From the NCBI GenBank assembly GCA_005881995.1, contig VBHV01000569.1, positions 1 to 10,001 of the forward strand: 10,001 nucleotides of DNA, given 5' to 3'. Shown here piece after piece: positions 325 to 10,001 of the stretch. Every line of letters begins with the position of its first letter. Positions within the stretch are counted from its first letter, which is position 1. The notes under the pieces are model-generated. The model did not search any database and was not told the DNA's origin. It saw only the letters and a program-made list of their open reading frames with translations. The DNA is from Chloroflexota bacterium. Its GTDB lineage: Bacteria; Chloroflexota; Ktedonobacteria; Ktedonobacterales; Ktedonobacteraceae. The position numbers and the translations under genes were made by a program.

Positions 325-340
325 ATGGTTGTGTTTACCA
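325..340 (+). repeat. Dispersed 16-bp motif, copy 1
   Basis: ATGGTTGTGTTTACCA lies between the ChrB-like gene and the ABC operon. An exact reverse complement is at 3524-3539, and a 14/15 match to its first 15 bases is at 3133-3147. Extending to 20 bp (324-343 against 3521-3540) gives 18/20 matches by hand. The ATG here is in frame with the binding-protein gene and would add 13 residues, but it has no good ribosome-binding site and is better read as part of the repeat. Confidence 0.65.
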
Positions 341-349
341 AGCACAAAA

Positions 350-354
350 AGGAG
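350..354 (+). promoter_or_regulatory. Ribosome-binding site that fixes the binding-protein start
   Basis: AGGAG, within AAAGGAG (348-354), sits 9 nt before the ATG at 364. Starting there puts the lipoprotein signal peptide exactly at the N-terminus. This argues against the in-frame ATG at 325. Confidence 0.8.
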
Positions 355-363
355 AATGATCTG

Positions 364-1422
364 ATGCAGACACGATTGGCTTCTTGTTCTCGAGTCCTTG
401 CGCTCGCGGTGATGCTGGCTCTTGCCCTGGTGGGCTGCGGCTCGCAGTCATCATCGAACAGCAATGGACAGATCACTGTCCACCTCGGGTATTTCCCCAA
501 CCTGACCCACGCGGCAGCGATTGTAGGCGTGGAGCGTGGGACATTTCAGACTGCCCTCGGTTCAAACGTGAAGCTTGAGACGAAAAACTTCAACGCTGGC
601 CCCGCACTGATCGAAGCGCTCTTTGCCGGTTCTATCGATATTGGCTACGTGGGCCCCAATCCGGCAATCAACGGCTACGTGAAAAGCCACGGTACGGCAC
701 TCCGCATCATCGCTGGCGCATCCAGTGGCGGCGCGCTGTTTGTCGTGCAATCGAATGAGCGCATTCAATCCCCGAAAGACCTGGCCAACAAGACATTCGC
801 CACGCCGCAGCTTGGCGGAACACAGGATGTTGCACTGCGCTACTATCTCCAGCAGAACAATCTTGCCCCCGTTGACAAGGGCGGCAACGTGAAGATCGAG
901 CCTACTGATAACGCTACCATTTTGTCGCTGTTCAAACAGGGCAAGATTGATGGCGCATGGGTACCCGAACCCTGGGCAACACGCATGGTGGTCGAAGGAA
1001 AGGGGAAAGTGTTCGTTGATGAACGCACACTATGGCCCAATGGACAGTTTGTGACCACCGATATCGTGGTACGCAAAGCATTCCTGGATCAGCACTCCGA
1101 CCTGGTCAACAAGTTCCTCCAGGCCCATGTCGATACCGTGCAGTGGATTCTCAGCAATCCTGACAGCGCCAAGAGTATCATCAACAGCGAAATTAAGCGC
1201 ATCACCGGTAAAGGGATGCTGACCAATGAGCTTGATATTGCCTTCAACAACCTTACCATCACCTACGATCCCTTGACCACCACGCTGACGCAGTCGGCAG
1301 ATAGGGCATACTCCCTGGGATTTCTGGGCAGCAGTAAGCCTGACTTGAGCGGCATTTACAACCTTGGGTTGCTTAACCAGGTACTCGCGTCCAAAGGGCT
1401 GGCTATAGTACAGGGTCCGTAA
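364..1422 (+). CDS. ABC importer substrate-binding lipoprotein, sulfonate/nitrate/taurine type
   Basis: The 352-aa protein begins with a lipoprotein signal peptide: R4, a hydrophobic run at about 11-23, and lipobox L-V-G-C with the acylated Cys at 25. A Ser/Asn-rich linker follows. The mature part has the SsuA/TauA/NrtA-like pattern: GYFPNLTHAA at about 42-51 (ligand pocket entry), a GSIDIGYVGPNP stretch at about 89-100, and WVPEPW at about 199-204 before the second lobe. These type II periplasmic-binding folds deliver alkanesulfonates, taurine, nitrate/cyanate or thiamine precursors to their permease. The sequence does not settle which. The protein should be anchored to the outer face of the membrane. 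It is the first gene of a three-gene operon, with the ATPase 30 nt downstream. It is complete and of usual length. Sulfonate is my preferred substrate, at moderate confidence only. Confidence 0.88.
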   Translation: MQTRLASCSRVLALAVMLALALVGCGSQSSSNSNGQITVHLGYFPNLTHAAAIVGVERGTFQTALGSNVKLETKNFNAGPALIEALFAGSIDIGYVGPNPAINGYVKSHGTALRIIAGASSGGALFVVQSNERIQSPKDLANKTFATPQLGGTQDVALRYYLQQNNLAPVDKGGNVKIEPTDNATILSLFKQGKIDGAWVPEPWATRMVVEGKGKVFVDERTLWPNGQFVTTDIVVRKAFLDQHSDLVNKFLQAHVDTVQWILSNPDSAKSIINSEIKRITGKGMLTNELDIAFNNLTITYDPLTTTLTQSADRAYSLGFLGSSKPDLSGIYNLGLLNQVLASKGLAIVQGP

Positions 1423-1452
1423 CGCAATCAGTGAGTAGAGAGGATACAGTAC

Positions 1453-2316
1453 ATGTTTCGCCAGTTAACGTTGAGTAACGAGCAGCGTATTGAGCAAACC
1501 GCGGGCAATGACCAACCGGCGCCCGGTGGTATCCCCCTCAAGATCGAGGGCGTAAGTAAGACCTTCGCTGGCCGCACAGGGAGCGTCGAAGCCCTGCGCC
1601 CGGTGGAACTGGACATAGCCGCCGGTGAGTTCATCTGCCTGCTCGGCCCAAGTGGCTGCGGCAAGTCAACCCTGCTGAGTATCATCGCAGGGCTAGAAGC
1701 TGCTAGCAGCGGCACAATCATAGCCAATGGCAAAGAAGTGCGCGGGCCAGGTACCGACCGGGTTCTCCTGTTTCAGGAAGCCGCGCTCTTCCCCTGGCTC
1801 GATGTTCAGCGCAATGTCGAGTTCGGGCTGCGTCAGGCAGGGAAGCACGCAAAGGAGCGGGCAGCCCTGGCCAGGCACTTCATAGAGCTAGTGCATCTCA
1901 AGGGGTTCGAGCGCAGCTTCGTGCACCAACTTTCTGGCGGGATGCGCCAGCGCGTCGCCATCGCGCGAGCGCTGGCCATCGACCCGGCCATATTGCTCAT
2001 GGACGAACCATTCGGCGCCCTGGATGCGCTAACCCGCGATCGCTTGCATACTGAACTGGAATCCATCTGGGCGGCAACACGCAAAACGATCGTGTTTGTG
2101 ACGCATAACGTACGCGAGGCCGTGGCGCTCGGTGACCGCGTCATAGTCTTCTCACCGAGGCCAGGGCGCATTGTGCGCGAGTTTTCTATCGACCTGCCCC
2201 GCCCGCGCTCGTTGGAGAATCATCTACTAGTTGATCAGGCGGCCCAGATCATGACTGTCCTACATGAGGCGATGGGCGAACATGAACAGGAGATAGCCAA
2301 TGGCACAAGCAATTAG
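1453..2316 (+). CDS. ABC importer ATPase, SsuB/TauB/NrtD family
   Basis: This 287-aa nucleotide-binding subunit powers uptake through the adjacent permease from the cytoplasmic face. All motifs are intact: Walker A GPSGCGKST (65-73), Q-loop Q108 in LLFQEAALFPW, signature LSGGMRQR (160-167), Walker B ILLMDEP (180-186), D-loop GALD (188-191) and switch His218 in VTHN. The FQEAALFPW stretch and the PRPGRI segment at about 235-240 are typical of the nitrate/sulfonate/taurine ATPases. The first 28 residues are an extra hydrophilic extension before the usual start of the fold. The ATG at 1453 has AGAGAGGA at 1437-1444, so I keep it. The 3' end overlaps the permease start by 17 nt, which suggests translational coupling. 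Confidence 0.93.
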   Translation: MFRQLTLSNEQRIEQTAGNDQPAPGGIPLKIEGVSKTFAGRTGSVEALRPVELDIAAGEFICLLGPSGCGKSTLLSIIAGLEAASSGTIIANGKEVRGPGTDRVLLFQEAALFPWLDVQRNVEFGLRQAGKHAKERAALARHFIELVHLKGFERSFVHQLSGGMRQRVAIARALAIDPAILLMDEPFGALDALTRDRLHTELESIWAATRKTIVFVTHNVREAVALGDRVIVFSPRPGRIVREFSIDLPRPRSLENHLLVDQAAQIMTVLHEAMGEHEQEIANGTSN

Positions 2317-3112
2317 CGCGTCCACAAAACGCTTGAGTATAAACTCTTCAGTGCTGACAAAGTGGGCACGGCGCACAGTATTCTATATCCTTTTGCTGGC
2401 TTTCTGGCAAGTACTTGCCAGCCTCGCCATCTGGCCAGATTACCTGTTCCCAGGTCCGCTCGCGGTATTCAACTCGCTGGTTAACGGTTTCCAAAACGGC
2501 CTCTACCTCCAATCTACGTTCGCGAGCCTGCAGCGACTGGCGGTTGGATATATCATCGCCCTCGTGGTCGGCATGGTGCTTGGTTTACTGATCGGAAGCT
2601 ATCCCATCTTCGAAGAGACCGTCGGTTCGCTGGTCCTCGGTCTACAGGCCCTGCCCAGCGTCTGTTGGTTACCTCTGGCCATCCTCTGGTTTGGCCTGGA
2701 CGACCAGGCGATCATCTTCGTGGTCGTCATGGGCGCGCTTTTCTCAATCACGCTCGGAGTAGATGCCGGTATCAAGAATACACCCCCGGTCTATCTCAAA
2801 GCAGCTCGCAACCTGGGCGCTCGCGGAGTAGCGCTTGCCGCACAGGTGGTGCTGCCAGCAGCCATGCCAGCTATCATCAACGGCTTGAAGCAGGGCTGGA
2901 CATTCGCCTGGCGCTCGCTCATGGCTGGTGAATTAATCTACTTCACGGTAAGCCTGGGTAATCTGCTCAATACCGGGCGCGACCTCAACGACGCATCGCA
3001 AGTGGTTTCAGTGATGGTCTTGATTGTCGTGGTTGGCGTCGCCATCGACAGCCTGATCTTTGCTCCGCTTGAGCGCCGCGTGCGCTATCGCTGGGGCTTA
3101 ACCAGACCGTAA
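2300..3112 (+). CDS. ABC importer permease, SsuC/TauC/NrtB family
   Basis: This 270-aa inner-membrane subunit has about six hydrophobic helices: around 26-45, 80-100, 108-130, 136-155, 200-218 and 235-255. The cytoplasmic EAA-type coupling loop is clear: K-A-A-R-N-L-G-A at 167-174 and V-V-L-P-A-A at 183-188. The FAWRSLMAGELI segment (202-213) is characteristic of the sulfonate/nitrate permease family. The start ATG lies inside the ATPase gene, preceded by ACAGGAGA at 2286-2293, so the two subunits are probably made in step. The operon thus contains one of each subunit; the permease presumably acts as a homodimer, as is known for the family. No convincing terminator follows, so transcription may run into the small downstream gene. 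Confidence 0.93.
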   Translation: MAQAISASTKRLSINSSVLTKWARRTVFYILLLAFWQVLASLAIWPDYLFPGPLAVFNSLVNGFQNGLYLQSTFASLQRLAVGYIIALVVGMVLGLLIGSYPIFEETVGSLVLGLQALPSVCWLPLAILWFGLDDQAIIFVVVMGALFSITLGVDAGIKNTPPVYLKAARNLGARGVALAAQVVLPAAMPAIINGLKQGWTFAWRSLMAGELIYFTVSLGNLLNTGRDLNDASQVVSVMVLIVVVGVAIDSLIFAPLERRVRYRWGLTRP

Positions 3113-3576: not shown

Positions 3577-5088
3577 CTATTGCAACCCCCAGATGGTGAC
3601 CGTATTGCCTGAAGCCGTCGCAATCTGCTTGCCACCCGGCGACCACGCCAGCGCGAGTACGGGAGCATCCTGGTTCACTTTAAAAAGAGGCGTCTGGCTC
3701 TGCGCGGGATACCAGATGGCCAGCACGCCATCATCGCCTGCCGTCGCCAGAAAACGGCCATCGGGCGACCATGCCAGCGCGCGTACAATCTTTGTATGCC
3801 CATGCATTTGCATGGGCATATCCATGCACTGGCCATTGCTCGCTACCTGGCAGGTGAGGCCATTCCAGATGCGCACAATGCCATCATCGCCGCCAACCGC
3901 GAGCTGGCTACCCGTTGGGGCAAAGGCCAATGCGCGCATCGGCAACTGCGCGTCCAGAAAGAAGTTATGCACCTCTTGCCCTGTGCTGGCATTCCAGACA
4001 CGTACCGCACCGCCCTGTGATGAGGTCGCGACAGTCGAATTATCCGAAGCCCAGGAAGCGGCTTCTATCGGAGTAGAATGGCGAGTGAAGACGGTTTGCG
4101 GTGTAAACGTAGCTGCGTCCCACACGATAGCATGCATATCGGCTGATCCAGAGACCAGGCGCGCTGGCTGCTGCGGCGACCAGGCCAGGGAGGTAACAGT
4201 TTTGGTATGATCCTGCGTAGACTGTCCTAGAACCGCGCCCGTCTGGGCATTCAACCATGTGATCTGGTTAGCTGCTCCTGCGGCCAGCAGCATGCCATCA
4301 GGCGACCAGGCGACAACATGCACGGAGGCAGGCTGCTGAAGACGTAGTTGCACCGTACCATTTACATCCCAGGTCAAGAGCTGTTTATCGTTCGCACCGC
4401 TGCCGAGCATTTTGCCATCGGGAGACCATGTGACCGAACGGACAATCTGCTGGTGCTGCATGAAGACCAGCCCGGCCCTTGCACCGGTAGGAATGGTAAG
4501 CGGCGCGGTTGTTGGTTTGCTCTGAGCAGGGGTGATATTCTGCGCGAGTCTGGTTGTCATACCGCCTGTTGTGGCGCCTGACAAGAACGAATGGTAGGCT
4601 GCATATCCCAATCCCGCGGTACCAACACCTAAGACGGCACCTCCCAGCAAGAGGAAGGCCCGGCGTGACCATTGCCCCTTTTTTCTTTGGTACACTCTCG
4701 GCAATGATCCAGAAGTCTGGACGCCGAGGGCAGGAAAGAGGGAAGAGTCGGCCATCGTCTCAGAAGTATAGAATGAGGGTTGGCGTGACTGCTGGCTTTT
4801 ATGCATCAACGTTGCCACCGACCCATCCATCACATACGAATCTAGAGCAAGTTTCGCGCCGGAATTGATACCTGCCGCCGCCAGGCTTTTATCATCGGAC
4901 AAGATCGAGCCATCCTCGGCGCAGCGCAAAAGATAGACCAGCCGGTTACCAAAAAGATCGGTTTGTGGCAATTTTAATTCATCAACAATAGCGGGCACAA
5001 GCGCGGAAACCGGTGCATGCGCAGCTACTGCCATCGGACGTACGGCCCCCAGCGCATTTTGCTCAATCAATATTTCAAACGTTCGCAC
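3577..5088 (-). CDS. YukD/EsaB-like domain - twin-arginine membrane segment - WD40 β-propeller protein
   Basis: This 503-aa protein has three parts. Residues 1-86 resemble the ubiquitin-fold YukD/EsaB family, known from type VII (WXG100) secretion loci: FGNRLVYLLR at 46-55, then SILSDDKSLAAAGINSGAKLAL at 61-82. Residues about 131-168 hold basic residues, S-R-R-A-F-L at 141-146 and a hydrophobic helix, which looks like an internal twin-arginine (Tat) signal anchor. Seven WD40 repeats follow, ending near W240, W278, W323, W365, W408, W459 and W500, enough for one seven-bladed propeller. By the positive-inside rule the propeller would face outward. The start is GTG at 5088-5086 with AGGGAG at 5100-5095. 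Between blades 5 and 6 there is a Cys/Met/His-rich insert (413-431). No secretion genes are adjacent. The molecular role is unknown; scaffold or sensor is an inference. Confidence 0.85.
   Translation of the reverse strand: MRTFEILIEQNALGAVRPMAVAAHAPVSALVPAIVDELKLPQTDLFGNRLVYLLRCAEDGSILSDDKSLAAAGINSGAKLALDSYVMDGSVATLMHKSQQSRQPSFYTSETMADSSLFPALGVQTSGSLPRVYQRKKGQWSRRAFLLLGGAVLGVGTAGLGYAAYHSFLSGATTGGMTTRLAQNITPAQSKPTTAPLTIPTGARAGLVFMQHQQIVRSVTWSPDGKMLGSGANDKQLLTWDVNGTVQLRLQQPASVHVVAWSPDGMLLAAGAANQITWLNAQTGAVLGQSTQDHTKTVTSLAWSPQQPARLVSGSADMHAIVWDAATFTPQTVFTRHSTPIEAASWASDNSTVATSSQGGAVRVWNASTGQEVHNFFLDAQLPMRALAFAPTGSQLAVGGDDGIVRIWNGLTCQVASNGQCMDMPMQMHGHTKIVRALAWSPDGRFLATAGDDGVLAIWYPAQSQTPLFKVNQDAPVLALAWSPGGKQIATASGNTVTIWGLQ
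3795..3820. repeat. Perfect 12-bp-arm palindrome inside the WD40 gene
   Basis: TATGCCCATGCA (3795-3806) is followed by TT and its exact reverse complement (3809-3820). On the minus strand it encodes most of the Met/His-rich insert M-P-M-Q-M-H-G-H. It may be a by-product of the repetitive ATG/CAT codons. Confidence 0.6.
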
Positions 5089-5410: not shown

Positions 5411-6256
5411 GTGACAAACTATATTTTCGTTCCTATTGTGGTAGGACTGGCTGCGGTGCTGTTTGCCGCATACCTTGCAAGCTATGTCCTGCGCAAAGAC
5501 ACTGGCACGCCTGCCATGCAGAAGGTCGCCGACGCTATATTCAAGGGCGCATTGGCCTTCCTCTATCGACAGTATCGTACAATCGCCTTTCTCGCTATTT
5601 TTGCCGCCGCCATCGTCGCGCTCGTTCTCGGATTGATCGGACAGGGTGATAGGGTTAGCCTGGCCTGGCATACAGCCGTAGCGTTCTTGATCGGCGCGCT
5701 GTGTTCTGGTATTTCCGGTTACATCGGCATGTACGTCGCGGTAAAGTCCAACAGCCGCACAGCAAGCGCTGCCACCCGCAGCCTGGGCGAGGCGTTGATG
5801 GTCTCCCTGCGCGGCGGCGCGGTCTCCGGCTTCCTGGTGGTCGCACTCTCACTGCTGGGCGTGTCGATTGTCTTCACCGCTTACGGCGGCTTGACCGACC
5901 CGGCGACCGCCCCATCCCTGATCGTGGGCTTTGGTTTCGGCGCAAGCTTCGTCGCGCTGTTCGCCCAACTCGTCGGCGGTATCTACACCAAAGCTGCTGA
6001 CGTTGGCGCCGACCTGGTCGGTAAAATCGAAGCCGGCATCCCTGAAGACGACCCTCGCAACCCCGCCGTCATCGCTGACCTCGTAGGTGACAACGTCGGC
6101 GACTGTGCAGGCCGTGGCGCCGACCTCTTTGAGTCCACCGCCGCTGAAAATATCGGCGCGATGATCCTGGGAGTGGCGTTGTATACAGCGACGCTGAATA
6201 TCGGCTGGATTCTCTTCCCGCTGGTTGCGGCAAAGACCCTGGTGAAATCGCCATGA
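5411..6256 (+). CDS. hppA: Membrane-bound proton-pumping pyrophosphatase, N-terminal part
   Basis: M-PPases hydrolyse cytosolic pyrophosphate and pump H+ (or Na+) across the membrane, normally as a single chain of about 650-770 residues. This 281-aa frame covers the N-terminal two fifths. Helices lie around 5-26, 57-77, 85-110, 137-159, 171-192 and 247-264. The first active-site block is present: GGIYTKAADVGADLVGKIE (189-207), then IPEDDPRNPAVIADLVGDNVGD (210-231) and CAGRGADLFES (232-242), with the Mg-PPi-binding Asp and Lys residues. The seventh helix starts at about 264 (IGWILFPLVAA), but the frame ends 10 residues later in KTLVKSP and TGA. The next frame starts at the overlapping ATG. The family's IADNVGD is IADLVGD here and AGM is AGR; I believe some related enzymes share this, so I do not treat it as damage. 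Confidence 0.88.
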   Translation: MTNYIFVPIVVGLAAVLFAAYLASYVLRKDTGTPAMQKVADAIFKGALAFLYRQYRTIAFLAIFAAAIVALVLGLIGQGDRVSLAWHTAVAFLIGALCSGISGYIGMYVAVKSNSRTASAATRSLGEALMVSLRGGAVSGFLVVALSLLGVSIVFTAYGGLTDPATAPSLIVGFGFGASFVALFAQLVGGIYTKAADVGADLVGKIEAGIPEDDPRNPAVIADLVGDNVGDCAGRGADLFESTAAENIGAMILGVALYTATLNIGWILFPLVAAKTLVKSP

Positions 6257-7584
6257 ATCAACTCAATATCGGCTATTTCATCACCTGTTTCTTCTCTATC
6301 ATCGGTGTCTTCCTGGGCAGCTTCCTGCTCCTCAATGTTGACAAGCTCACAAATGGTCAGCCACTTCCAACAGGTGCTCTCCCAGGCTGGGTCTGGTTTG
6401 GCCTTGCCGGTACTACCGGCATTCTTCTTAGCGTCGCCTTTGTGTACATCACGCAGTACTACACCGCAGGCACGTGGCGTCCCGTGCGTGAAATTGCCGC
6501 CGCAACGCTGACAGGTCCCGCCACAACCATTATTACAGGTGTGGCAGTGGGATTTGAATGTGTCGCTCTTCCCGTACTCGCTATTAGCGCCGCGCTGGGT
6601 CTCTCCTACTTCCTGGGCAGCCAGGTGAATTTGGGGTTTCACGGGGTCATTAGCACAGGGGGTATCTTTGGTACCGCGGTTGCCACCATGGGCATGCTCA
6701 TGAGTACTGCCTATATTCTCGCTATGGATACATTTGGTCCGATCACCGATAATGCTGGCGGCATCACCGAGATGAGTGGTCAGGCAGAGTCGATACGTGA
6801 CATCACCGACGCACTGGATGGCGTCGCTAATACCACCAAGGCCTTGACAAAGGGCTACGGTATTGGCTCGGCAGCGCTTGCAGCATTCCTGCTCTTTAGC
6901 GCGTACCTGGATGTGCTGTTCACCTACAAACCCGTTGCAAGCGTCTATACTGTAGACCTGGCCGATATCACGGTCTTCATCGCAGCCTTAATTGGCATCG
7001 CGCTCATCTTCTTCTTCAGCGCGCTGGCAATTCGCGCCGTAGGCGCTGCCGCCAAGCGTATGATTGAAGAAGTACGCCGCCAGTTCCGCGCCGATCCGAA
7101 GATCATGGCGGAAGACCCGGCGGAACGCCACGATCCCGACTACGCTCGCTGTGTAGACATCAGCACACGTGGTGCACTTCGCGCCATGGTTCTGCCTGGC
7201 CTGGTCGCCGTCTTCACTCCCATCGCGGTTGGTACCATCCTGGGCCCACATGCAGAGGCCGGAATGCTAATGGTTGGTACCATGGGCGGTGTCGTCCTGG
7301 CCCTCTTCCTCAACAACGGTGGCGGCGCGTGGGACAACGCGAAAAAGTATATCGAAGCCGGATACCTGCGCGTGAATGCTGAAGGTGAGATGGTAGATCG
7401 CCTCGATCCAAACGGCACCGTTCTGGGCAAGAAGAGCGAACCCCACAAGGCCAGCGTCGTCGGTGACACCGTTGGTGACCCGTTTAAGGATACGGCAGGC
7501 CCATCGCTCCACGTCTTGATCAAGCTGCTCAGCACCATCACTCTGGTACTGGCGCCCCTGTACGTGGCCCTGCATCCACTGTAA
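6253..7584 (+). CDS. hppA: Membrane-bound proton-pumping pyrophosphatase, C-terminal part
   Basis: This 443-aa frame continues the M-PPase in another reading frame; its ATG overlaps the previous stop as ATGA. It carries the remaining active-site blocks: DTFGPITDNAGGITEM (159-174), NTTKALTKG (193-201), NNGGGAWDNAKKYIEAG (354-370) and GDTVGDPFKDTAGPS (404-418). Lys196 in NTTK, where K+-dependent enzymes have Ala, points to the K+-independent H+-pumping subclass. It ends normally after the last helix (L-A-P-L-Y-V-A-L). No Shine-Dalgarno box is seen at 6253, so translation would depend on coupling to the upstream frame. Against single-chain enzymes recalled from memory, about 20 residues are absent between FPLV in the first frame and N-Q-L-N-I-G-Y here. 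Both halves are otherwise well conserved, so the break is recent, tolerated, or a sequence error. Confidence 0.88.
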   Translation: MNQLNIGYFITCFFSIIGVFLGSFLLLNVDKLTNGQPLPTGALPGWVWFGLAGTTGILLSVAFVYITQYYTAGTWRPVREIAAATLTGPATTIITGVAVGFECVALPVLAISAALGLSYFLGSQVNLGFHGVISTGGIFGTAVATMGMLMSTAYILAMDTFGPITDNAGGITEMSGQAESIRDITDALDGVANTTKALTKGYGIGSAALAAFLLFSAYLDVLFTYKPVASVYTVDLADITVFIAALIGIALIFFFSALAIRAVGAAAKRMIEEVRRQFRADPKIMAEDPAERHDPDYARCVDISTRGALRAMVLPGLVAVFTPIAVGTILGPHAEAGMLMVGTMGGVVLALFLNNGGGAWDNAKKYIEAGYLRVNAEGEMVDRLDPNGTVLGKKSEPHKASVVGDTVGDPFKDTAGPSLHVLIKLLSTITLVLAPLYVALHPL

Positions 7585-7615: not shown

Positions 7616-7654
7616 GCGCTCAGTCTTACACATGTAGGGCTGAGCGTGTTCTTT
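7616..7654 (+). terminator. Rho-independent terminator after hppA
   Basis: CGCTCAG (7617-7623) pairs with CTGAGCG (7640-7646). The stem continues inward through 7624-7629 with 7634-7639, with some G-U pairs and a 4-base ACAT loop. A T-rich tail (TGTTCTTT) follows. It lies 32 nt after the stop codon. Confidence 0.8.
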
Positions 7655-7749
7655 GTACACGACCACCAGATTGTACAAAACACTGTTGCGTGCTAACACG
7701 TATGGACAAGCTTCCGCGTCATGAAACGTATTTATACGAGGAAACGTGA

Positions 7750-7828
7750 ATGATAGAGAAGAGAAAATCTCTGCTACATCATATACTTACAACGCAGGCC
7801 GTAAAACACCTTACGTGAGGCAGGAGCT
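7750..7828 (+). promoter_or_regulatory. Promoter and leader of the HNH-lipoprotein gene (cassette copy 1)
   Basis: TATACT (7782-7787) is a good -10, 41 nt before the start codon. The dyad AGAGA/TCTCT (7760-7764 and 7768-7772) lies in the -35/spacer zone and could be an operator. No clear -35 is seen. Bases 7762-7820 match 8905-8963 at 51/59 positions without gaps; the first 29 bases match at 28/29. Such conservation in noncoding DNA argues for function. GAGG at 7817-7820 (8 nt before ATG) is the likely ribosome-binding site. Confidence 0.65.
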
Positions 7829-8386
7829 ATGAAGAAATACCTCGCTGTACTGGCACTACTAGCCGTTTTATCGTTGGTATTGGGCGGGTGTGAGATAAAG
7901 ATTTCAGGCAATGGCTTACCTAGTCCAGCAAATACAGCTATTCCATCGAGTGGCTCTGCTCACTTCGGTAAGCAAACGAAAACATCAGGGTGCGCAGCTC
8001 ATGGAGGGCTACCCGACTCTGCGTGTACTCCAGGTGCTATCTTCCCCAACGCGACAGTACAGCAGATTTGTACGTCAGGGTATGCAAGTTCAGTGCGAAA
8101 TGTACCCTCAAGTGAAAAGGATCAGGTCTACGCTGAGTACGGTATACGCTCTCACTATGCAGGTCAGTATGAAGTCGATCACCTCGTCTCCTTAGAGCTA
8201 GGTGGCTCTAACGACATCGCCAATCTTTGGCCCGAGGCCGCCTCTCCCAAACCTGGTTTTCACGAAAAGGATCAAGTTGAAAACTACCTGCACGACCAGG
8301 TCTGTTCGGGGGCTATGTCGCTGAAAGATGCACAAACGCAGATTGCAACGAATTGGCTAGCTGTTTATAATCGTATGCCGAAATAA
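7829..8386 (+). CDS. Lipoprotein with HNH-like nuclease domain
   Basis: The 185-aa protein starts with a lipoprotein signal peptide (K2-K3, hydrophobic 5-18, lipobox L-G-G-C with Cys21), so it should be anchored outside the cytoplasmic membrane. A Ser/Pro-rich linker (about 26-48) leads to a domain with Cys55, Cys66, Cys81 and Cys159, which could form disulfides. Its core is YEVDHLVSLELGGSND (114-129) then NLWPE (132-136), followed by KDQVENYLHDQVCSG (147-161) and an AQ--IA-NW helix (169-176). Secreted bacterial proteins with this D-H-L-x-x-L-E-L-G-G / N-L-W-P pattern are annotated as HNH-type endonucleases; Asp117 and His118 would be in the metal-binding site. Activity and target are inferred. 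The promoter, leader and signal peptide are nearly duplicated before the PLD gene at 8974. Confidence 0.8.
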   Translation: MKKYLAVLALLAVLSLVLGGCEIKISGNGLPSPANTAIPSSGSAHFGKQTKTSGCAAHGGLPDSACTPGAIFPNATVQQICTSGYASSVRNVPSSEKDQVYAEYGIRSHYAGQYEVDHLVSLELGGSNDIANLWPEAASPKPGFHEKDQVENYLHDQVCSGAMSLKDAQTQIATNWLAVYNRMPK

Positions 8387-8405
8387 TACGGAGCACGGCT
8401 TTTTT
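8377..8405 (+). terminator. Weak possible terminator after the HNH lipoprotein
   Basis: GCCG (8377-8380) can pair with CGGC (8396-8399), followed by six T (8400-8405). The stem is only 4 bp with a long loop and overlaps the end of the gene, so this is tentative. Confidence 0.3.
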
Positions 8406-8459
8406 CACACGCACGTCCATCATTGAATATATTTAGGGCCTGATAAGGAGGATTATTTC

Positions 8460-8843
8460 ATGACACAGCAAAGTGATCTGGCTACCATGTTCCTACTTAC
8501 CGGCGGAGACTTGAAGATTTCTTACTACATCAATGAAGATAATTCGTCTGAGCTTGATTACCAGGATGCGCAGGGAAGTCTCACCTTTCCCAGTGACAAA
8601 CTGCGCATACAGCCAGGTGCGATTGGCACTCTTATTACGGCCCCTCTCAAAAATAGTGCTGACGCCGGAGCAACGACGTTCACCCTGGTGTTACCAAACG
8701 TGAAGTTGGGAGGACAGACAAAACAGCCCATAGAAACGTTCGCGATTATTACGCAGGACTATAGCACGTTACAAAAGGTAGGCGCTCAATTCACCTATAA
8801 AGTGGTGCCCCTTCAGGGCACCGGTCAGTATACGGATTATTAG
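8460..8843 (+). CDS. Hypothetical protein, 127 aa, β-rich, unrecognised
   Basis: I do not recognise a family. The start is firm: AAGGAGGA at 8445-8452 is 7 nt before the ATG, the strongest ribosome-binding site in this block. The protein has no signal peptide or membrane helix and no cysteines, and so should stay in the cytoplasm. It is rich in short alternating hydrophobic stretches typical of β-strands (LKISYYI at 18-24, GSLTFP at 39-44, TTFTLVLPNVKL at 72-83, ETFAIIT at 91-97, FTYKVVPL at 111-118) and acidic near the N-terminus (EDNSSELDYQDAQ, 26-38). It lies 73 nt after one surface hydrolase and before a second. A cytoplasmic partner or inhibitor of the upstream nuclease is conceivable, but nothing in the sequence proves it. 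Confidence 0.75.
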   Translation: MTQQSDLATMFLLTGGDLKISYYINEDNSSELDYQDAQGSLTFPSDKLRIQPGAIGTLITAPLKNSADAGATTFTLVLPNVKLGGQTKQPIETFAIITQDYSTLQKVGAQFTYKVVPLQGTGQYTDY

Positions 8844-8890
8844 GCGCTCGTATCCCGATTATTTCCATTTGAAGCACCCACAGAAATAGG

Positions 8891-8973
8891 ATGATAGAGC
8901 ATGCAGAAAATCTCTGCTATATCATATACTTACCACATAGGTCGTAAAAAACAGTACGTGAGGTAGGGGTTTT
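8891..8973 (+). promoter_or_regulatory. Promoter and leader of the PLD-lipoprotein gene (cassette copy 2)
   Basis: TATACT (8925-8930) lies 43 nt before the ATG. Upstream is the dyad GCAGA/TCTGC (8903-8907 and 8913-8917) at the same place as the dyad in copy 1. The block shares ATGATAGAG and 51/59 bases of 8905-8963 with copy 1. GAGG (8960-8963) or AGGGG (8965-8969) can serve as the ribosome-binding site. Confidence 0.65.
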
Positions 8974-10001
8974 ATGAAGAAATACCTATCTATGCTGCCA
9001 ATACTTGCTACTTTATCGTTGGTATTGGGTGGATGCATAATTAATATTTCAACCGGTGGGAGCAATACACCTCAGTGTACGAGCAATTGCGCGGCTGGTT
9101 CCGGCGCCCAGGGAGCGCGAGTCTACGTTGAGCCGGACGACGGGGAGCAGATAATAACAGGAGCAATCAAGGGAGCGAGAAAATCGGTGTGGTTAGAGAT
9201 ATATATCCTGTCGGACCGCAACGTTATCCGTGCGTTGGAAGACGCGGCCAATAATGGCATAGATGTACGCGTCATGCTGGAACCACATCCATTCGGAGGT
9301 GGGTCTTCCCCCTCAAAAACCATCGACCAACTCAAGGCGACTGGTGCCCGGGCGCAGTACACCAGTCCCGATTTTACATTGACTCATGAGAAAGGCCTGA
9401 TCATCGATGGTTCCACCGCCTATATCATGACCTCCAATTTCTCACGCTCCGCGCTGGGCGGCTCAAGCGGTAGCAGCGGCTTCAGGAACCGCGAATACGG
9501 TATCATTGATACGAACGCGCAAGATGTGCAGGCCGTCATCAGCATCTTTAACGCCGATTGGAACCACACGACGGCGCAGTTCAACGATCCCAATCTCGTA
9601 GTCAGCCCGGTCAATTCACGCAGCGACATCAACGCTCTGAGTGGCAGTGCCAGCCGGACATTGCGCATCGAAGCGGAAGAGATGAATGATAGTTCCATCG
9701 AACAGGCACTCACCAGCGCAGCGCAACACGGTGTGCATGTCGAGGTAATCTTACCTGCCCCAAGTGGTTCATCCGGGGATAGCAATAGCCAGGGCATAGC
9801 GACCATCAAACCGGGAGGCGTACAGGTACGGGAGGACAGCCAGTTGTACATGCATGCCAAAATCATCGTTGTGGATGGCGTCAAAGCTTTCGTCGGGTCG
9901 GAAAACATCTCCAGCCAATCGCTGGACCAAAACCGTGAACTGGGCATCATCGTTTCTGATGCCACTGTGCTGAACAGGCTCCAGAGCACTTTCCAGACGG
10001 A
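8974..10001 (+). CDS. Phospholipase D-superfamily lipoprotein, 3' end outside window
   Basis: The frame is open from ATG 8974 to the window end (342 codons). The signal peptide is a near copy of that at 7829 (16 of 21 residues identical, lipobox L-G-G-C, Cys21), so the enzyme should sit outside the membrane. Both catalytic HKD motifs are intact: H138-E-K140 with D145, followed by TSNFS (153-157), and H294-A-K296 with D301, followed by GSENIS (308-313). The acidic residues after each are in NREYGII (172-178) and NRELGII (320-326). FNADW (192-196) closes the first repeat. The visible end, LQSTFQT, resembles the matching end of the second repeat, so only a few residues are probably missing. The superfamily includes phospholipases, cardiolipin synthases and Nuc-type nucleases; I cannot tell which this is. 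The extracytoplasmic site and the nearby HNH protein favour nuclease or lipase. Confidence 0.87.
   Translation, partial: MKKYLSMLPILATLSLVLGGCIINISTGGSNTPQCTSNCAAGSGAQGARVYVEPDDGEQIITGAIKGARKSVWLEIYILSDRNVIRALEDAANNGIDVRVMLEPHPFGGGSSPSKTIDQLKATGARAQYTSPDFTLTHEKGLIIDGSTAYIMTSNFSRSALGGSSGSSGFRNREYGIIDTNAQDVQAVISIFNADWNHTTAQFNDPNLVVSPVNSRSDINALSGSASRTLRIEAEEMNDSSIEQALTSAAQHGVHVEVILPAPSGSSGDSNSQGIATIKPGGVQVREDSQLYMHAKIIVVDGVKAFVGSENISSQSLDQNRELGIIVSDATVLNRLQSTFQT

Follow-up and report, generated by a model that had tools for sequence, protein, structure and literature searches.

The window analysed here is a stretch of 10,001 nucleotides (nt) of DNA from a soil member of the Ktedonobacteraceae (Chloroflexota), a bacterium related to Ktedonobacter; its relatives place it in this family. 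Toward its 3' end, two genes for surface lipoproteins, one for an HNH-like protein and one for an enzyme of the phospholipase D (PLD) superfamily, each carry a copy of the same leader and signal peptide at the front. A preliminary description of this DNA had proposed that a noncoding leader and a signal peptide are reused here ahead of two unrelated enzymes. This reuse is real, and comparison with relatives identifies the PLD gene as the borrower. The features of the locus are as follows.

5411..7584, + strand: membrane pyrophosphatase (H_PPase), in two overlapping open reading frames (ORFs), 5411-6256 and 6253-7584, with Pfam PF03030 on both
7750..7828, + strand: leader copy 1, ahead of the HNH-like gene; starts with an imperfect dyad, 7750-7782
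7829..7891, + strand: lipoprotein signal peptide 1, MKKYLAVLALLAVLSLVLGGC, predicted from the sequence
7829..8386, + strand: HNH-like surface lipoprotein of 185 amino acids (aa), predicted from homologues, a weak Pfam HNH match and invariant residues
8460..8843, + strand: ORF of 127 aa between the HNH-like and PLD genes, absent from the preliminary description
8891..8973, + strand: leader copy 2, ahead of the PLD gene; starts with the same dyad, 8891-8925
8974..9036, + strand: lipoprotein signal peptide 2, MKKYLSMLPILATLSLVLGGC, of the HNH type and not of the PLD type
8974..10001, + strand: PLD-like surface lipoprotein with two HKD motifs; continues past the end of the window

The two lipoproteins

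The predicted product of the second lipoprotein gene is solidly assigned to the PLD superfamily. It matches Pfam PLDc_2 with an E value of 8.5e-42 (142.6 bits against a cut-off of 27) and PLDc with an E value of 2.1e-9, and its translation holds two HxKxxxxD motifs, HEKGLIID and HAKIIVVD, which we take to be the HKD motif of this superfamily. Whereas the double-HKD enzyme of the preliminary description is borne out in this way by Pfam, the nuclease that it saw in the first gene calls for more guarded wording. The Pfam HNH match of the 185-aa protein (13.7 bits against 21.4, E 0.074) falls below the curated cut-off, yet D117, H118, N128, and N132 are invariant across 33 aligned sequences (the window protein and 32 hand-picked sequences from the 120 homologues listed), and these D-H...N residues are presumably the conserved core of an HNH endonuclease. 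For these reasons we call the protein HNH-like only. A profile search against the PDB returned two weak matches, neither of them a nuclease. The protein has 5,947 homologues at E <= 0.001, and some of them, of Ktedonobacteraceae, carry the public name "HNH endonuclease."

Both proteins start with a hydrophobic signal peptide and a lipobox, LGGC, that ends at residue 21, as in bacterial lipoproteins of the signal peptidase II type. A lipobox-like motif is likewise present in 119 of the 120 HNH homologues and 117 of the 120 PLD homologues listed, by a loose pattern that sometimes takes another Cys. These sets are the best 120 of 5,947 sequences for the HNH-like protein and the best 120 of 1,737 for the PLD, the PLD search having scored only the 7,992 candidates that share most words. 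The 127-aa ORF gave no match in Pfam, NCBIfam, PADLOC, or PHROG at E <= 0.001.

A leader and signal peptide present twice

Bases 7762-7820 and 8905-8963 are identical at 51 of 59 positions without gaps, including 28 of 29 in the first part, and the 21-residue signal peptides that follow share 16 residues. Both matches had been pointed out before and are reproduced here; local alignment carries the repeat farther, to 7750-7906 against 8891-9051 with small gaps (score, 147, compared with a maximum of 38 in 300 shuffle pairs). The copies are spaced 1143-1145 bases apart, which places the 5' end of the putative donor, the HNH-like gene, about 1.1 kb from the PLD gene. The signal-peptide DNA is identical at 50 of 63 nt, and at the level of codons there are 6 silent changes, 5 residue changes, and 10 unchanged codons.

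As the preliminary description had it, the two proteins part after the lipobox Cys, and the likeness is gone within about five codons, over the stretch C-E-I-K-I-S in one and C-I-I-N-I-S in the other. In the 120 nt after that stretch, 45 of 120 ungapped positions are identical, and beyond it the HNH-like and PLD proteins are unrelated. On the other side of the repeat, the flanks 5' of 7750 and 5' of 8891 do not align (score, 12). Given that 10 of the 16 shared residues lie in unchanged codons, any likeness upstream that had once been part of the repeat would probably still be detectable, so that the repeat seems to have real edges, one near 7750/8891 and one near the lipobox.

Family ownership of the shared segment

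Comparison with the two families shows that the MKKYL...GC signal peptide belongs to the HNH-like lipoproteins and that relatives of the PLD have other signal peptides; the leader appears to belong to the HNH-like family as well. Signal peptide 1, from the HNH-like gene, has a mean identity of 12.8/21 to 98 HNH-family peptides and of 4.6/21 to 114 PLD-family peptides. For signal peptide 2, from the PLD gene, the corresponding means are 11.8/21 (best, 16) and 4.6/21 (best, 8). Of the 120 HNH homologues, 22 are not counted in these means: P0001 was set aside deliberately, and in the others no lipobox was found or fewer than 21 residues stand before the Cys. On the PLD side, 6 of 120 are not counted (P0121 and P0236 set aside deliberately, four on the same technical grounds), and neither is P0241. 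In the best 120 of 1,737 PLD homologues, the next closest full-length protein outside the near-identical group (P0122, 85% identical) has an unrelated signal peptide. The combination seen in the window extends beyond this one record: in P0121 (17 member sequences) and in P0241, this PLD is likewise headed by the HNH-type signal peptide of the window.

For the leader, the evidence comes from the predicted starts of homologous proteins. An N-terminal extension precedes the signal peptide in 9 of the 120 listed HNH homologues. Those of P0002 to P0006, P0008, and P0013, which are 7 of the 13 best homologues, match the leader translation, with 0 of 200 shuffles as good in each case; the remaining two extensions match less well (P0037, equalled by 1 of 200 shuffles; P0099, by 12 of 200). 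We infer that the seven are over-extended gene models that read leader-like DNA upstream of HNH homologues. P0002 reads this DNA in one frame and the other six in a different one; most likely, then, the leader does not code for protein, and a conserved upstream peptide is rejected on the same ground. Six of the seven extensions are closer to copy 1 than to copy 2 (58-60 versus 49), and P0002 is about equally close to both (66 versus 65). Among the 120 listed PLD homologues, no N-terminal stretch of 45 residues scores above 33 with either leader copy, a ceiling at about the level of P0037 (35).

Gene order in relatives

A PLD relative at E <= 1e-40 is present in 42 of 47 genomes of the class, and one PLD locus was compared from each of 30 of these 42. 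In 18 of the 30 loci, among them the six with the best scores, the PLD gene is preceded by a membrane pyrophosphatase gene of the same orientation, with a gap between the two of about 131-296 bases in 17 of these loci and about 1,127 bases in one. None of the 30 loci has a homologue of the HNH-like gene or of the 127-aa ORF within the stretch compared. Likewise, none of 29 HNH loci has a PLD or pyrophosphatase gene in flanks of up to 1.5 kb, and the small ORF adjoins the HNH gene in one of them only, that of G028, the closest genome. In G028 the genes lie on two contigs: C7 carries the HNH gene (79% identical) and the small ORF (72% identical), the ORF beginning 45 bases after the HNH match, and C41 carries a pyrophosphatase in a single ORF and then the PLD gene.

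Because the usual orders in relatives are pyrophosphatase-PLD with the HNH gene separate, the order pyrophosphatase-HNH-small ORF-PLD in the window is most likely derived. The preliminary description had allowed for an alternative in which one gene was simply duplicated in tandem and its domain replaced later. This is not what relatives show, since the HNH gene and the pyrophosphatase-PLD pair are separate loci in the genomes examined, and we reject it in view of the PLD's own usual locus behind the pyrophosphatase together with its own signal-peptide family.

Elsewhere in the class, an HNH-like gene in G009 (L021, 1492-2457) is followed after about 1.2 kb by a remnant of the C-terminal part of an HNH gene, with a 273-aa ORF in between whose end, in our judgment, resembles a Vsr/DUF559-type nuclease. 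The remnant suggests that the HNH family can duplicate locally.

Origin of the arrangement

We believe that the locus probably reflects a lineage-specific rearrangement in which the HNH-like gene and the 127-aa ORF moved in and the leader and signal peptide of the PLD gene were replaced by a second copy of those of the HNH-like gene. The starting state would have been the one common in Ktedonobacteraceae, with the PLD-like lipoprotein gene directly behind the pyrophosphatase and equipped with its own leader and signal peptide. A segment with the HNH-like gene and the 127-aa ORF would then have entered the gap between the two, and a second copy of the HNH leader and signal peptide would have taken the place of the PLD's own, with an in-frame joint at or just after the lipobox Cys, where the C-x-I-x-I-S stretch common to both proteins could have acted as microhomology. 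Possible routes include a tandemly duplicated HNH segment and integration by recombination. We infer a single event, after which the PLD would still be exported as a lipoprotein and would probably be expressed under the 5' control of the HNH gene.

Several observations weigh against this reconstruction. No pyrophosphatase lies within the 1.4-1.6 kb upstream stretch covered in 12 of the 30 PLD loci, and the full order pyrophosphatase-HNH-ORF-PLD is seen in this record only. In an alignment with 16 relatives, the DNA ahead of the HNH-like gene held nothing that is clearly left from the old PLD leader; 8 of 500 shuffles equalled the score of G028 and 7 of 500 that of L001, which is weak given that these are the best two of 16 scores. 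Furthermore, at the 23 of 29 HNH loci of the class genomes that were scored, no upstream region matched the leader above its own shuffle maximum, so that the link between leader and HNH family comes from the closest public protein homologues only. The other 6 of the 29 loci lacked a usable start, and among the 23 the start is plainly misplaced in 4 (L012, L014, L017, and L025); the fragments L021 and L022 were omitted.

Variation among close strains also bears on the number of events. In P0236 (18 member sequences), mature residues 22-122 (101 residues) are identical to those of the window PLD, and the signal peptide is identical at 12/21 residues, with a best match of 14/21 to the HNH type versus 9/21 to the PLD type. 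The natural interpretation of this protein is that an exchange took place near the lipobox, either as a second capture or with another HNH donor, and P0236 may imply more than one exchange. Conceivably, although we think it unlikely, signal peptides are exchanged at the lipobox recurrently in this lineage, with C-x-I-x-I-S as the recombination joint and P0236 as a second, independent exchange. If so, surface enzymes would repeatedly swap leader and export signal, and the C-x-I-x-I-S stretch would be alike in unrelated lipoprotein families.

Two further variants were seen among the homologues. P0116 is an in-frame fusion that begins with the N-terminal part of the HNH-like protein and ends with the C-terminal portion of the 127-aa ORF, and P0241 is a form of this PLD that lacks about 94 residues from the region separating its HKD motifs; both may be either deletion variants or sequencing artefacts.

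The same end state could also have been reached in two steps, with the HNH-like gene and the small ORF inserted first and the 5' end of the PLD gene later overwritten by gene conversion from the HNH 5' end, a donor only about 1.1 kb away. We consider such a history improbable. The HNH and PLD signal peptides share little, and in G028 the DNA upstream of the PLD gene does not align with leader copy 2 (score, 15). With so little likeness between the two 5' ends, there would have been little homology to start conversion upstream of C-x-I-x-I-S.

Still less likely, in our view, is a mobile expression-and-export cassette, the interpretation favored in the preliminary description, in which the leader and signal peptide roam the genome and capture different enzymes. 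Such a cassette would fit a shared unit that covers noncoding DNA as well as a signal peptide and ends near the lipobox, the exact start of both repeat copies at a dyad, and the existence of a sibling PLD, P0236, whose mature start is identical but whose signal peptide is another one of the HNH type. However, even when up to three mismatches were allowed, the leader core turned up in none of the 47 class genomes (a set that does not include the host genome of the window), and its exact form is found in no viral contig and only twice within the window. When both signal peptides were searched against proteins of about 241-768 aa (2,094 candidates), only P0121 and P0241 matched at E <= 10, and both are the same PLD; this search sees near-identical peptides only, as these two matches scored just 31-32 bits (E 0.04-0.05), and diverged copies would be missed. 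Thus, no third gene using the leader and signal-peptide module was found in the class genomes, the viral contigs, the window, or the proteins of this size range, and the Pfam scan of ten window ORFs turned up no gene for mobility. The preliminary description had itself counted a lack of further copies against the cassette idea, and as far as could be tested in these sets there are none; support for a mobile cassette picking up different enzymes is lacking. A plasmid origin was also considered and rejected, as 7700-9080 has no match in the plasmid collection.

Finally, it is hardly credible that the repeat is a chimera made by the assembler, because, even though the window may be a metagenome record and the neighboring pyrophosphatase is 82 nt short relative to that of G028 and shifted in frame, the HNH-type signal peptide recurs on the same PLD in the member sequences of P0121 and in P0241, the HNH gene recurs next to the small ORF in G028 and in a fused variant in P0116, and the leader copies have 8 mismatches in 59 positions, unlike a copy error.

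Regulation and neighboring genes

Neither leader copy contains a plus-strand sigma-70-like promoter site, and each contains the same minus-strand sigma-70-like match (9/12). Both copies begin exactly at the dyad, the arms of which flank an A-rich center. The dyad scores 12/15 in copy 1 (7750-7782), equalled by 1 of 500 shuffles, and 11/15 in copy 2 (8891-8925), equalled by 24 of 500. It could be an operator, a suggestion that is only a lead since 21 of 221 window tiles reach a score of 11/15. The predicted fold of the leader RNA is no better than chance for copy 1 (equalled by 41 of 200 shuffles) and moderate for copy 2 (12 of 200). A known RNA element was sought and rejected, as the window has no Rfam match at gathering scores. 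Co-regulation of the HNH-like and PLD genes, a putative role of the leader, is plausible.

A perfect 8-base inverted repeat, TTTGTACA-N12-TGTACAAA, lies at 7652-7679 between the pyrophosphatase and HNH-like genes. It is a possible operator as well; 0 of 200 shuffles have such a repeat, the pattern having been picked after it was sighted.

The 82 bases that the pyrophosphatase gene of the window has fewer than that of G028 are missing between 6227 and 6228. A single frame covers both parts in 6 of 6 relatives checked, and the split in the window may reflect either a disrupted gene or a sequence error. Upstream of this gene, on the minus strand, lies a gene for a WD40-repeat protein (3577-5088), part of which also matches DNA near the pyrophosphatase on contig C41 of G028. 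Farther upstream (325-3112) is an ABC transporter set consisting of an NMT1-like binding protein with a lipobox-like start, an ATPase, and a permease.

The PLD protein matches many PADLOC profiles of the DISARM protein DrmC (best E 3e-28), and its NCBIfam DrmC score is 87 bits against a cut-off of 133. We read these matches as general PLD similarity, and no DISARM partner is present among the window ORFs scanned with Pfam and NCBIfam. A defense system was rejected on the basis of this low score and of the HNH-like gene and 127-aa ORF having no PADLOC match.

Discussion

The arrangement is reminiscent of two known systems. The Erp lipoproteins of Borrelia are reported to have evolved from one promoter, leader, and localization sequence combined with many diverse external parts (PMC10016077). 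The likeness lies in a 5' module of promoter, leader, and signal peptide ahead of diverse mature lipoproteins, with the promoter known for Erp only. In contrast, the Erp family is large and occupies an allelic location on cp32 prophages, whereas here two genes at one locus encode unrelated enzymes, the window ORFs scanned include no phage genes, and no further copies were found in the sets searched. The Erp architecture is what the preliminary description had imagined, but with many members. The second system is citT in the Lenski experiment, in which a promoter is reported to have been captured by duplication (PMC4718724). There, as probably here, duplication sets a copy of other 5' control DNA ahead of a gene. 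Unlike in citT, the duplicated piece in the window carries signal-peptide codons and creates an in-frame protein fusion.

Within the family, the window PLD resembles other Ktedonobacteraceae PLD-like lipoproteins, publicly named "cardiolipin synthase A/B" or "phospholipase D-like," in its mature domain, its lipobox, and its usual pyrophosphatase neighbor. It differs from them in that its native leader and signal peptide appear to have been replaced and that an HNH-like gene and a small ORF intervene. Among the open-licence papers listed in our searches, we saw none on such a case in Ktedonobacter. Promoter capture and shared 5' modules are already known kinds of event, and we regard the case in the window as a real, well-polarised, and lineage-specific replacement of a 5' end.

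In summary, the locus offers a natural case of a gene that would have gained the 5' region and export signal of another gene, for which relatives supply both the usual gene orders and the signal peptides typical of each family. It would appear that one leader can come to head surface enzymes that are unrelated, with no evidence that a mobile cassette is involved. Likewise, a conserved leader and signal peptide need not imply that the enzymes behind them share a common ancestry.

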